Shown in pieces: positions 3,745 to 10,248 of a stretch of 10,248 bases of DNA. The stretch lies in contig QIMA01000158.1 in NCBI GenBank assembly GCA_003233535.1, positions 1-10,248 of the forward strand, in the 5' to 3' direction. The notes under the pieces are model-generated. The model did not search any database and was not told where the DNA came from. It was given only the letters and a program-made list of their open reading frames with translations. A program made the translations under genes and the position numbers. Source of the stretch: Rhodanobacteraceae bacterium. GTDB lineage: Bacteria > Pseudomonadota > Gammaproteobacteria > Xanthomonadales > SZUA-5. How positions within the stretch are numbered: position 1 is the first letter of the stretch; every line of letters starts with the position of its first letter.

Positions 3745-4905
3745 ATGAGTTTTCAGAGCTTCGGGGTCATTGGGACCTCGCTGAAGGTCGATGAGCGGCG
3801 CGTGCCGATTCACCCTGAGCACCTTTCCCGATTGTCGGCCGAGATCCGCAATTCTCTGATTTTCGAGACTGGCTACGGCCTTCGGTTTGGCATGGACGAT
3901 GCAGAACTCGCCGCGTCCAGCGGCGGTGTCGCGCCACGGCGCGAACTGCTGGCCGAACTGGGCCGAGTGATCATTGCCAAGCCGATGCCAGCCGACCTCC
4001 AGGAACTGCGCGATGGCGGGGTGTTGTGGGGCTATGTGCATTGCGCACAGCAGCGCGCCGTAACTCAGGCGGCGATCGATCGTCGGCAGACCCTAATCGC
4101 ATTCGAAGACATGTTCGTGTGGAGCCGCGCAGGCCAAATTGGGCGCCACACCTTTTACAAGAACAACGAGATGGCTGGTTACTGCGCGGTCCTGCATGCG
4201 CTGCAGCTCAGAGGCATAGACGGTCACTACGGTAACCAACGCAAAACGGTCATTTTCAGTTTCGGTGCCGTCAGTCGCGGCGCAATTTACGCGCTGAAAG
4301 CGCACGGATTCCGTGATATCACCATCTGCATACAGCGTCCGGGTCAGGAGGTGCGAGAGGAAATTCTCGACTGCAACTACGTGCGCATTCGCATTGGGAG
4401 CGTCGGTGAGCCGCGGATGATTGAGGTGCTGCATGACGGCAGCGAGCGTCCGTTATCGGCGTTGATCAGCGAATCGGACATCATCATCAACGGTACTTTT
4501 CAAGATCCCGCCGCTCCTTTGATGTTCGTCACCGAAAGCGAACACCAAGTGATTAAGCCGGGCTGTTTGATCATTGATGTGAGCTGTGACGAAGGCATGG
4601 GCTTCTATTTCGCCAAGCCAACGAGTTTTGCCGCACCCATGTTCAAAGTTGGCAAGGCTGATTACTACGCTGTCGATCATACGCCAAGCTATTTGTGGGA
4701 GAGCGCCAGTCGATCCATTTCCGCCGCGATGGTCGTGCATCTGCCGTCAGTGTTGAGTGGCGCGTCGGGCTGGCAATCGAACGAGACGATTCGTCAGGCC
4801 CTGAACTTGGTTAATGGTGTGGTTCAAAAGCCAGCGATACTGAACTTTCAGAAACGCCAATCGGCTTATCCGCATCTGCCCTTGGTTGACGCGAAAGCGC
4901 CCTGA
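3745..4905 (+). CDS. Alanine dehydrogenase/PNT-family oxidoreductase, N5-(carboxyethyl)ornithine synthase-like
   Basis: The 386-residue protein starts at ATG 3745, with AAGG (3734-3737) seven bases before it. Residues 5-140 resemble the AlaDh/PNT N-terminal domain: ERRVPIHPEHL near the start, K79 in IAKPM and H99 in GYVHCA fall where alanine dehydrogenase has its pyruvate-binding lysine and catalytic histidine. FYKNNEMAGYCAVLHAL (137-153) closely resembles the YKN..AGYAGVLDAL segment I recall from lactococcal N5-(carboxyethyl)ornithine synthase (EC 1.5.1.24), which reductively couples pyruvate to ornithine. The Rossmann domain begins at about 167. IIDVSCDEGMGF and HTPSYLW near the end also fit. 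The nucleotide loop reads FSFGAVSRGA (171-180), so the first glycine of GxGxxxxGA is serine. The family is secure; the substrate is not, and a saccharopine- or opine-type reaction is possible. The gene stands alone, convergent with rmuC. Confidence 0.8.
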   Translation: MSFQSFGVIGTSLKVDERRVPIHPEHLSRLSAEIRNSLIFETGYGLRFGMDDAELAASSGGVAPRRELLAELGRVIIAKPMPADLQELRDGGVLWGYVHCAQQRAVTQAAIDRRQTLIAFEDMFVWSRAGQIGRHTFYKNNEMAGYCAVLHALQLRGIDGHYGNQRKTVIFSFGAVSRGAIYALKAHGFRDITICIQRPGQEVREEILDCNYVRIRIGSVGEPRMIEVLHDGSERPLSALISESDIIINGTFQDPAAPLMFVTESEHQVIKPGCLIIDVSCDEGMGFYFAKPTSFAAPMFKVGKADYYAVDHTPSYLWESASRSISAAMVVHLPSVLSGASGWQSNETIRQALNLVNGVVQKPAILNFQKRQSAYPHLPLVDAKAP

Positions 4906-6556: not shown

Positions 6557-6698
6557 CTAGCCCGGATGTTTCATGAACTCGCGCGATGATCGCGCAGGAC
6601 ATTGATTGTCCAGTGATTTTTCTGAAGGAGCGGTGTAGTGGTTCATGCGATCAATGGACAAGCGAGGGCGCGTGAAGTTTATGAAACGTTCGGGCTAG
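6557..6698 (-). repeat. Palindromic dispersed repeat, copy 1 (142 bp)
   Basis: The ends are CTAGCCCGGATG and CGTTCGGGCTAG, near-perfect terminal inverted repeats. Read on the minus strand, the copy aligns over its length with copy 3 (8435-8589): shared blocks include TTTCATAAACTTCACGCG near one end, a 21-base identical block (6626-6646 here, 8501-8521 there), and CAATGTCCTGCGCGA near the other. Inner hairpins are GCGCGA/TCGCGC with a three-base loop (6581-6595) and GGACA/TGTCC (6597-6611). No ORF of note is present. It is a non-autonomous MITE- or REP-like element and begins 25 bases upstream of the rmuC start codon. Confidence 0.85.
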
Positions 6699-6776: not shown

Positions 6777-6851
6777 CTAGCCCGGAGTTGCATGAGCATT
6801 CGGCGCGAAGATCGGCGGCCGCAGCCGAAGGTTCATGAAACTCCGGGCTAG
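6777..6851. repeat. Palindromic dispersed repeat, copy 2, short form (75 bp)
   Basis: The ends are CTAGCCCGGAGTTGCATGA and TTCATGAAACTCCGGGCTAG, the same termini as copies 1 and 3, but the core is different and shorter. The core forms its own stem, TTCGGC pairing with GCCGAA. It lies 78 bases after copy 1 and ends 81 bases before the mtnB start, so the 401 bases between rmuC and mtnB are mostly repeat. The sequence between the two copies (6699-6776) shows nothing recognisable. Confidence 0.8.
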
Positions 6852-6932: not shown

Positions 6933-7577
6933 ATGACTATCGCCGTATTTAGCGCTGCGCGTTTCGCCGAATGCGCCCAGGCCATTGCTGAACAGGCCGC
7001 CGATCTTGCTGCCAAGGGCTGGATACCGGCGACCAGCGGCAATTTCTCGCTGCGCATGGACGACCAGCATGTCGCAGTCACCGCTTCTGGCTGCAACAAG
7101 GCTGCATTGACCCCGCAGGAAGTGCTGGTCGTGGATCTGCATGGCAAGCCGCTGTTGACCCACGGCAAGCCTTCGGCAGAAACCGAGTTGCATACGCAGA
7201 TCTATCGGCGCTTTCCGGAGATTGGCGCGGTGCTGCACACGCACTCGCTCAACCAAACGCTGGCGTCGAAGGTGTTTGCCGCCGAAGAACGGTTGGAGAT
7301 TGCGGGTTACGAGCTGCTCAAAGCATTTTCTGGCTACGCGAGCCACGAAGACCACATCGTCATACCGGTGTTTGCTAATAGCCAGGATATGGGCGAGTTG
7401 GCTGCGGCGATCGACGACTACTTGGCCCATAAGCCGATCACTCATGCTTATTTGATCGACGGGCATGGCGCTTACGCCTGGGGTGCGACGATGGCGGATG
7501 CGCGTCGTCATCTGGATGCGCTGGAATTTCTGTTGAGCTGTGAACTGGAAATGCGGAGATTGCGCTCACATCGATAA
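6933..7577 (+). CDS. mtnB: Methylthioribulose-1-phosphate dehydratase (methionine salvage)
   Basis: This zinc-dependent class II aldolase-fold enzyme dehydrates 5-methylthioribulose 1-phosphate to the diketone that MtnC then uses, in the cytoplasm. The 214-residue product shows [13 protein letters not shown] (29-41), TASGCNK (50-56), the zinc ligands H102 and H104 in LHTHS and H178 in DGHGAYAWG, and E127 in GYELLKAF at the position of the catalytic glutamate known in human APIP. The length is normal for the family. ATG 6933 is preferred over GTG 6909, since a -10-like TATAGT (6905-6910) overlaps that GTG; AAGAGGG precedes ATG at short spacing. It is the first gene of the mtn cluster. Its stop codon TAA (7575-7577) lies inside the mtnD remnant, so the last few residues may have changed when the deletion occurred, far from the active site. 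Confidence 0.93.
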
Positions 7578-7764
7578 TCGGGTGTATGAAGTATCTTGCG
7601 AGCGCGGCGATCTCATTTCGGTGCCGGCCGGCACGCGTCACTGGTTCGATATGGGACCGGCGCCGAGTTTCGTTGCGATCCGGCTGTTCATCAATCCCGA
7701 GGGTTGGGTCGCATCATTCACCGGCAGCGACATCGCCGAACGATTTCCAAGGCTGCAAGCATGA
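7563..7764 (+). pseudogene. mtnD: Acireductone dioxygenase remnant, N-terminal about 60% deleted
   Basis: From about 7567 the frame reads [19 protein letters not shown], then [20 protein letters not shown] and a tail ending ERFPRLQA, stopping at TGA 7762-7764. This is the C-terminal third of MtnD, the cupin enzyme that oxidises acireductone to the 2-keto precursor of methionine. The family has about 180 residues; only some 66 remain. The histidine in GTRHWFD, equal to the fourth metal ligand (His140 in the Klebsiella enzyme), is present, but the part with the H-x-H-x3-E ligands is missing. No mtnD start codon remains; the frame opens upstream only through mtnB codons (GTG 7540). The stop overlaps the mtnC start as ATGA, the original operon joint. 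A stable active enzyme is not expected. An assembly error is the main alternative. Confidence 0.85.
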
Positions 7765-8438
7765 CCATCAAAGCCATCGTCACCGACGTTGAAGGCACCA
7801 CGAGCGATATCGATTTCGTCCGTAAGTGCTTGTTTCCTTATGCGCGCGAACGCATGCCCGAGTTTATCAAGACTCACGGTCTGGATGATGAGCTAAGGAA
7901 ATTACTGGCGATGGTGGTCGCCGAAACTGATCTCCAGGCGGGGGATTGGGAAGGAATCGCCGAACGTCTGCAGCACTGGATCGATGAGGATCTTAAGCAC
8001 ACGGCGCTCAAGGCGATCCAGGGGATGATCTGGCGTGAAGGATTTGAGCAAGACGTATTCCGATCTCACGTCTATCCCGACGCCGTTCACCACTTGCGTC
8101 GCTGGCACGCTGACGGCATCGCGCTGTACGTCTATTCCTCTGGTTCGATCGCGGCTCAGCAGCTGTACTTTCGCCACTCTGCGGCGGGTGATCTGTCTGA
8201 CTTGTTCAGCGGCCACTACGACACGACGTCGGGGGGCAAGCGGATCGCGGAGTCTTATCGCAAGATCGCTGCTGATATCGGTCACGCGCCTGCTGGTCTG
8301 CTGTTCTTGTCCGACATTGAGGCCGAGCTGGATGCCGCTAAGGAGGCCGACTGGCAGACCGTGCAGGTGGTTCGCGAAGGGACGATGCCTAGCGACCGTC
8401 ACCGGCAAGTGGCCGAGTTCGGCGGCGTGGGAATCTAG
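7761..8438 (+). CDS. mtnC: Acireductone synthase / enolase-phosphatase E1 (methionine salvage)
   Basis: This HAD-superfamily enzyme enolises 2,3-diketo-5-methylthiopentyl-1-phosphate and removes the phosphate to give acireductone. The 225-residue product has the family motifs: [12 protein letters not shown] (9-20; nucleophile D9 and E11 in the MASA-type motif I), LYVYSSGS (122-129, motif II), K160 in SGGKR (motif III) and [11 protein letters not shown] (183-193, motif IV), plus the conserved [15 protein letters not shown] cap segment at 81-91. The length is typical. The start ATG overlaps the mtnD stop (ATGA), with AAGG (7749-7752) eight bases upstream. The stop TAG (8436-8438) is part of the terminal CTAG of repeat copy 3, which therefore sits exactly at the gene end. 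A longer frame opening at 7596 reads through the mtnD remnant in another frame and is not used. Confidence 0.94.
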
Positions 8439-8589
8439 CCCGGAATTTCATAAACTTCACGCGCCCTTGATCGCCCAGCGACTTTTCCTCCGTCGGGGGT
8501 ATGAACCACTACACCGCTCCTGCGGAAAAACCACTGGCCTACCAATGTCCTGCGCGAGCATCGCGCGAGTTCATGAAATTCCGGGCTAG
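8435..8589 (+). repeat. Palindromic dispersed repeat, copy 3 (155 bp)
   Basis: The ends are CTAGCCCGGAATTTCAT and ATGAAATTCCGGGCTAG, perfectly complementary over 17 bases. The copy is in opposite orientation to copy 1 and shares its internal blocks, including an identical 21-base segment at 8501-8521 and the GCGCGA/TCGCGC hairpin (8552-8566), whose three-base loop differs between copies. Its CTAG supplies the stop codon of mtnC. Read as RNA, the terminal inverted repeat could fold into a long stem at the 3' end of the mtn transcript. Confidence 0.88.
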
Positions 8590-8696
8590 CTCATCCGAAC
8601 GCCGCGGCGAGCTTTGCTCGTGACGCGGTGGCTGTCTAGCGAGCGCCGCACTCTTCGGCGAATTTGGCTCGTAGGCGGACCCGTGCTGAAAGGCAC

Positions 8697-8724
8697 TCGA
8701 AATCGACACTGCGACCCCGATAAT
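8697..8724 (+). promoter_or_regulatory. Weak candidate sigma-70 promoter for the C13 peptidase gene
   Basis: TCGAAA (8697-8702) and GATAAT (8719-8724) are separated by 16 bases and match four and five of the six consensus bases respectively. If used, transcription would start near 8731, downstream of the earliest possible start codon (TTG 8614), which supports a start at GTG 8758. This is judged by eye only. Confidence 0.3.
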
Positions 8725-8757
8725 AGGGGCTTGTTCGGCAATGCCTTGAACCGACCA

Positions 8758-10206
8758 GTGAAGTCTTTGTTAATCACGTTATGGCTAGGACTGCGGCTGC
8801 AGGTGCTGCTGCCGCCGCCGGCCAGTCAGCGCATTCGTCCGGCCGCACACTTTTGGCTGCTGCTGATTTTGCAGATTGCCAGCACCGTGCTGATCGCCTG
8901 GATGTACGCGCCAGCGGCCGCGGTCTTCGATCCGATGGGCGTGCAGAGTGATGCTTTCCTAGCCATCCTGACCTTGGGCAGCGCAGCGTTGGCTGCGACC
9001 GTACTCAAACGGCCAGTGCTGGCTTGGTCGTTGGCGGTGCTGTGGACGGCAGCGGGCCTGTGGCTGGGCTGGATTTGGGTGTTGCTTGAATGGCTGTTGG
9101 CCAGCTTCGGTATTGATTTGGCAGCCTATCCGCTGAGCATCCGGCTCGTTTTGTTGAGCTGGTGGCTGCTGATCCTGCGCCGTTCGCTGGACGGGCTAGC
9201 GCCGGACGCGGGCTGGGCCTGGCCAGGAGTGGTGGCTCTAGCCGCGGCGTTGGTCAGTGGTTTACCTGCGCTGATGCTGCCGCTGGCTAACTATTATGAG
9301 ATGGCCTATCAACTGCCAGTGGCCTATTACGATGAGTATGCGCCGCCTTGGCCGCTACGCAGCAGCCCGGAAGTGTTGCTGGCCGGCCAGCCGGCGTTAG
9401 TCGACCACGCATTAGCCAAGCTCAAGGCGCAGGACCCGCAGCGCACAGACGGCTACTTGTTGGCCTTTGGTGGCGACGGTTCGGAAACGGTGTTCCGCAA
9501 TGAAGTTGACTACGTGCGGCAGCTGTTTGCTCAGCGCTTCGGCATGCAGGGCCGGACCCTAGGCCTGCTTAATCATCCAGAGACGACCGACAAGCTGCCG
9601 CTGGCCAGTCTGACCAATCTGCGTTCGGCGCTCAAAGGAATGTCGGAGGTAATGGACCCTGAGGAAGATCTGCTGTTCTTGTTCATGACCAGCCACGGCA
9701 GTTCGGACCATCAGCTGTATGTGGATCTGCTTGGTCTACCGCTGGACCAGATCGATCCGCAGCAGCTCCGACTAGCGATTGACGATAGCGGTATCCGCTG
9801 GAAGGTCCTGGTCGTGTCTGCCTGCTATTCGGGCGGCTTTATCGACGCTTTGACCGACAGCACCACGCTAGTGATCACCGCTGCGCGTGAGGACCGTTCA
9901 TCGTTTGGCTGCGGCGTGGATTCGGATTTCACCTATTTTGGCCGCGCCTTTTTCATCGACGCGCTGAATCAAACGGCGGATTTCTTGCTTGCTTTTGACC
10001 TAGCCAAGGAGCGGATCGCCGAGCGTGAGGCAATCGAAGAACTCGATCCTTCCGAGCCACAGATTGCCAGCACGCCGCTAATCGAAGCGCGCCTGAACAG
10101 CTGGGCCGGGCAACTGGAGTTGGGGCCGGAGTTGGCCTGGTCATTGCCTGATCTCGGCGATTCGCGGGAGTCGCCAGCCGAACCGGCCTCTGACCGTAGT
10201 GACTAA
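8758..10206 (+). CDS. Polytopic membrane protein with C13 (legumain-clan) peptidase domain
   Basis: With start GTG 8758 the product has 482 residues. The first 180 carry about five hydrophobic helices (near 31-49, 66-82, 87-113, 124-141 and 155-176). A soluble domain follows from about 200: YLLAFGGDGSETVFRNEVDYV, DLLFLFMTSHGSSDHQLY with the expected catalytic H313, and VLVVSACYSGGFIDAL with the expected nucleophile C356. A histidine in SHG after one hydrophobic strand and a cysteine in SACYSGG after the next is the known clan CD pattern (legumain, GPI transamidase, caspases). The tail from about 440 is acidic and variable. The start is uncertain: the frame is open from TTG 8614, but that stretch is less hydrophobic, has no good ribosome site and would precede the candidate promoter. 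The stop TAA (10204-10206) is formed by the first bases of repeat copy 4. The substrate is unknown. Confidence 0.82.
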   Translation: MKSLLITLWLGLRLQVLLPPPASQRIRPAAHFWLLLILQIASTVLIAWMYAPAAAVFDPMGVQSDAFLAILTLGSAALAATVLKRPVLAWSLAVLWTAAGLWLGWIWVLLEWLLASFGIDLAAYPLSIRLVLLSWWLLILRRSLDGLAPDAGWAWPGVVALAAALVSGLPALMLPLANYYEMAYQLPVAYYDEYAPPWPLRSSPEVLLAGQPALVDHALAKLKAQDPQRTDGYLLAFGGDGSETVFRNEVDYVRQLFAQRFGMQGRTLGLLNHPETTDKLPLASLTNLRSALKGMSEVMDPEEDLLFLFMTSHGSSDHQLYVDLLGLPLDQIDPQQLRLAIDDSGIRWKVLVVSACYSGGFIDALTDSTTLVITAAREDRSSFGCGVDSDFTYFGRAFFIDALNQTADFLLAFDLAKERIAEREAIEELDPSEPQIASTPLIEARLNSWAGQLELGPELAWSLPDLGDSRESPAEPASDRSD

Positions 10207-10248
10207 CCCGGAGTTTCATAAACTTCATGCGCCCTCGTTAGGCCCTTG
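10203..10248 (+). repeat. Palindromic dispersed repeat, copy 4 (cut by the window edge)
   Basis: It begins CTAACCCGGAGTTTCATAAA and continues with CTTCATGCGCCCTCG, closely matching the left end of copy 3 and, on the other strand, the right end of copy 1 (TTCATAAACTTCACGCGCCCT). Its first CTAG has become CTAA, and these bases give the stop codon of the C13 peptidase gene. The right half is outside the window. Confidence 0.75.

Follow-up and report, generated by a model that had tools for sequence, protein, structure and literature searches.

The mtn locus of the window

The window analysed here is a stretch of 10,248 bases that forms one contig (C116) of a draft genome of 3.08 Mb, assembled in 606 contigs and 80.93% complete. 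Its plus strand carries mtnB, a piece of mtnD and mtnC, flanked by minus-strand rmuC and a Peptidase_C13 protein. mtnB (6933..7577, plus strand) encodes methylthioribulose-1-phosphate dehydratase and scores 233.9 bits against the family model TIGR03328, whose cut-off is 137.05. It starts at the ATG at 6933, as does P0001, an MtnB protein cluster with four members. mtnC (7761..8438, plus strand) encodes acireductone synthase, an enolase-phosphatase, and scores 242.2 bits against TIGR01691 (cut-off 128.1). A sequence-only reading of this DNA had described both enzymes as complete, and the family models agree.

Elsewhere in the draft, an MTAP-like gene is full-length and scores 272.4 bits, just below its cut-off of 274.85. 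mtnA is found in two pieces at contig ends (C216:8-310 and C415:3074-3289), and its middle is unassembled.

The Peptidase_C13-domain protein follows mtnC at 8614-10206, and a match to it was seen in 11 of the 30 fetched loci of relatives despite their short flanks (L003, L004, L007, L008, L010, L013, where it is weak, L015, L018, L019, L020 and L024). An AlaDH/PNT-like protein at 3745-4905 scores 73.8 bits, far below the alanine dehydrogenase cut-off of 391.85. Rfam returned nothing at gathering score in the window. The closest named records in a genome scan that may omit the window's own genome were Lysobacterales HKST-UBA245 and Gammaproteobacteria Co_bin.113.

The joint and the mtnD remnant

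What has happened between mtnB and mtnC is best seen against two genomes of the same genus, G001 (locus L020) and G002 (locus L008; its mtnD is of the type of P0243). The named records L032 and L033 match L020 and L008, respectively, and give the same identities. In both genomes a 181-residue mtnD overlaps its two neighbors, with its ATG overlapping the mtnB stop. The window shares with these intact operons the gene order, rmuC before, Peptidase_C13 after, and the flanks. mtnB is 87-89% identical to L020/L032 and L008/L033 over 211 residues with 0 gaps, and mtnC is 78-80% identical to its relatives over 225 residues, again with 0 gaps. The difference is a segment of mtnD that the relatives carry and the window lacks, running from the end of mtnB into mtnD codon 116. 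Counting base 7566 as part of mtnD, it measures about 346 bases against L020 and about 349 against L008, and both the lengths and the position of the joint may be off by a few bases, since the parental allele may differ from both. The sequence-only reading had put the missing length at about 350 bases, which holds as an absence relative to these genomes.

Alignment to the relatives and breakpoint arithmetic place the joint at 7565..7566, give or take a few bases, at the right edge of the range of 7555-7566 proposed earlier. mtnB is colinear with its relatives to about 7565, its last colinear codon being an Arg (7563-7565), and colinearity resumes at the His117 codon of mtnD (7567-7569). After the joint mtnB runs on for three foreign codons and a TAA at 7575-7577, all drawn from mtnD sequence. 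This stop is read out of the mtnD codons GAT (7573-7575) and AAT (7576-7578), just as had been noticed. The same reading had called the arrangement a deletion fusion of mtnB and mtnD. A deletion joint relative to the relatives does exist, but mtnB and the remnant lie in different frames, and therefore the product is not a fusion protein.

What is left of mtnD comprises 65 C-terminal codons and a stop (7567..7764, plus strand), in keeping with the roughly 66 codons first estimated. The open reading frame named at that time (7540..7764, plus strand) is a mechanical one from the ORF list, whose first nine codons align as out-of-frame mtnB. It scores 58.2 bits against PF03079 (cut-off 27) and covers only profile positions 110-157 of 157; no NCBIfam model matched it at an E-value of 0.001. 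The remnant is 85-88% identical to L008 and L020 over 65 residues and 95% identical over 64 residues to P0244, the closest full-length protein among 360 that were fetched (the best 120 each of 2985, 147 and 7999 hits, the third of these searches having scored only the 8000 candidates with most words in common). An intact mtnD allele of the same species was sought among these 360 proteins, and P0244 came close but at 95% over 64 residues is not the same allele.

Is the remnant likely to be functional? It is 65 residues long, whereas 120 full-length homologues span 180-200. It aligns with the C-terminal third of acireductone dioxygenase (ARD; MtnD, PF03079; PDB 1zrr) and keeps the ligand histidine of the GTRHWFD motif; it lacks the first 116 residues, and three of the four metal ligands with them. 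By hand count on the alignment, the ligands H97, H99, E103 and H141 of L020 fall on residues 88, 90, 94 and 133 of the 179-residue chain 7jxg_A, the numbers given for the ligands of human ARD in the excerpt available of PMC8315008. 120 of 120 full-length homologues carry the same four residues, three His and one Glu, and H141 is the only one retained in the window, so the earlier statement that three ligands are gone was correct. According to the same excerpt, mutation of any one of the four in the Klebsiella enzyme abolished metal binding and function. Because three of four ligands are gone and such mutants lose function, the remnant is expected to be inactive, a prediction made from its residues.

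mtnD in related genomes and the state of the remnant

Among 60 relatives, mtnB and mtnC are both over cut-off in 35, exactly those in which ARD also scores over cut-off; a weaker match in G047 lies under the cut-off and was left out of this count. All 35 matches are stop-free and begin at or before profile position 52, ahead of the ligand region. mtnB, mtnD and mtnC are adjacent in 30 of 30 loci fetched from these 35 genomes. As the sequence-only reading had allowed, the window strain differs from its relatives, which retain a longer mtnD at the same place. Truncated relative to its orthologues at that place, mtnD of the window has the form of a partial-deletion pseudogene.

We also surveyed a class sample of 377 genomes, which includes the window's own genome and at least five of the same relatives. 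In this sample 75 genomes carry both mtnB and mtnC over cut-off. An ARD match also passes its cut-off in 74 of them, the window remnant being counted as one, and the exception is G310. By mtnB alone such a match is missing in 5 of 88 genomes, and by mtnC alone in 3 of 78. By these counts, mtnB and mtnC are seldom, though occasionally, found without ARD.

Four genomes of class family f92 (G236, G310, G372 and G425) combine mtnB over cut-off with an mtnC-like gene, which in three of them scores under cut-off, and give no ARD match. In two of these the pair of mtnB and the mtnC-like gene lies at L053 5726-7047 (G310) and L054 5638-6968 (G425), beside genes that we take to be rnfA and rnfB-like. 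In G308 the N- and C-terminal parts of mtnD stand in different frames on a 3.05-Mb contig (L055, about 2300-2830), which may be real or a sequencing error.

Does the remnant show the decay expected of a gene that has lost its function? mtnB, mtnC and the remnant all have pairwise dN/dS values of 0.05-0.09; for the remnant the ratio is 0.07-0.09 in the two pairs that include the window and 0.09 between the relatives. On the window branch the remnant has a dN of 0.066 and a dS of 0.84, against a dN of 0.032 and 0.049 on the branches of the relatives, values that are rough because synonymous sites are near or past saturation. A test for relaxed selection on these near-saturated sites gave no clear sign of it, and by a rough Poisson estimate the neutral share of the window branch is below about 0.1. 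Neither a stop nor a frameshift occurs within the remnant. Two features could be faint signs of relaxation. Position 10 of the remnant is a Ser, found in 0 of 120 full-length homologues (116 of 120 have Leu), and amino-acid changes are most numerous on the window branch, four against one and three on the other two. The extra changes mean little, since mtnB and mtnC likewise have their longest branch in the window.

These patterns do not demonstrate the suggested loss of the salvage pathway: mtnB and mtnC look constrained, as does the remnant, the MTAP-like gene is full-length, and mtnA is cut by contig ends and not visibly broken. Because the remnant is without clear decay, the loss of mtnD is either very recent or not real.

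A recent deletion or an assembly error

Truncation of mtnD is an ordinary kind of event, and here it is well observed. We lean towards a real deletion of about 350 bases, in a single and very recent event, in at least part of the sampled population. Such a deletion would have taken the first 115-116 codons of mtnD together with its start and the mtnB stop that this start overlaps, so that mtnD codon 116/117 would follow directly on the last codon of mtnB. The joint would then be present in the DNA of the cell, and the leftover, without a native start, would give no active enzyme. Acireductone would continue to be made by MtnB and MtnC, and ARD would be missing for its conversion to the methionine precursor.

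The main competing explanation, which we regard as quite possible though the less probable of the two, is an assembly error in which the end of mtnB was joined to mid-mtnD through a chimeric read, the closure of a low-coverage gap or a strain bubble, so that the organism's mtnD is normal. Coverage may be thin because the draft, with its many contigs and incomplete genome, is of limited quality and two contig ends interrupt mtnA. Spurious pseudogenes are reported to arise at low coverage, although the excerpt available of PMC11017572 deals with frameshifts and internal stops rather than large deletions. Among the proteins seen, the joint has no independent copy: the remnant protein (P0121) is a single-member cluster whose member comes from a contig as long as the window, and the proteins seen include the tail of one of the four members of P0001. 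The constraint on the remnant, mtnB and mtnC, with little decay, is as compatible with an artefact as with a recent event. The presence of a longer mtnD in all 35 relatives with mtnB and mtnC also points to an error, as does the frameshifted mtnD of G308, which is possibly a sequencing error in another assembly.

Against an assembly error stand the breakpoints themselves and the rest of the contig. Within 40 bases on either side of the breakpoints in L020 and L008 there is no common word longer than 6 bases, and therefore no repeat of assembler k-mer size in these relatives. Nor do the other coding stretches compared, from rmuC to the C13 gene, have a gap like that in mtnD. Gap letters number 3 in 508 columns for rmuC (L033), 0 for mtnB and 0 for mtnC. 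For the C13 gene they number 13 in 486 (L032), 15 in 476 (L033) and 15 in 217 (L008), and the first 48 residues of that ORF are unaligned to the relatives. No counterpart of the left half of the window, as far as rmuC, turned up in the loci of the relatives that were compared. The absence of a longer common word and of a similar gap elsewhere mildly favors a real deletion. A deletion driven by a repeat was also considered, and the joint coincides with no repeat listed for the window.

Could the organism manage without this copy of mtnD? A lineage truly without ARD, in which MtnB and MtnC are under selection and acireductone is disposed of through an unrecognised enzyme, chemical oxidation or passage to other cells, seems improbable to us. 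Acireductone does oxidise chemically in air. There is also a slim chance that the deletion is real but harmless, with a full ARD copy in the unassembled fifth or so of the genome. The completeness of 80.93% leaves room for one, but ARD matches are single in all 36 relatives that have them, and two matches occur in only 3 of the 377 class genomes, the second being under cut-off in two of these. The search of the genome for a full mtnD that had been proposed returned the remnant as the sole significant PF03079 match in the contigs of the draft. Full-length P0244, run against the same contigs at E-values up to 10, added one match that looks like chance (36 residues, 36% identical, E 0.064, with an internal stop). 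A second ARD copy or a stray N-terminal piece was thus not found within the draft. That MtnB and MtnD work as a fusion, or that the dioxygenase functions in shortened form, is hardly credible: the excerpts available of PMC2759508 and PMC3698126 describe a fused MtnBD enzyme in Tetrahymena, in which mtnB is likewise joined directly to mtnD sequence, but there both proteins are whole in one chain and mtnC is lacking, whereas in the window the frames differ, a stop follows three codons past the joint, mtnD is a fragment without three of its four ligands, and mtnC is present.

Broken methionine-salvage genes have been described in another gammaproteobacterium, Sodalis glossinidius, where, in the excerpt available of PMC3228920, the pseudogenes are mtnK, mtnA, mtnC and mtnE; here the gene that appears broken is mtnD, in a draft genome. 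Among the papers listed in a literature search, titles and abstract openings gave no case of mtnD loss with mtnB and mtnC retained. If the deletion is real, the window holds a fresh loss-of-function allele at the step of methionine salvage that depends on oxygen, and the two preceding genes are intact. An artefact would instead be an example of a draft genome suggesting a pathway hole. In both cases, a gap of this kind in a draft calls for read support.

The mtn genes of the window also lie among copies of a MITE-like repeat with inverted ends (CTAGCCCGGA...), found at 6557-6698, 6777-6851, 8435-8589 and 10203-10248. These copies flank the mtn genes on both sides, and their ends overlap the stop codons of mtnC and of the C13 ORF. 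The end pattern, allowing at most one mismatch, has 88 matches in the window's genome and 0 in seven close relatives. Seven complete pairs of 155-225 bases were found, and 14 of the 88 end matches start less than 200 bases from a contig start.
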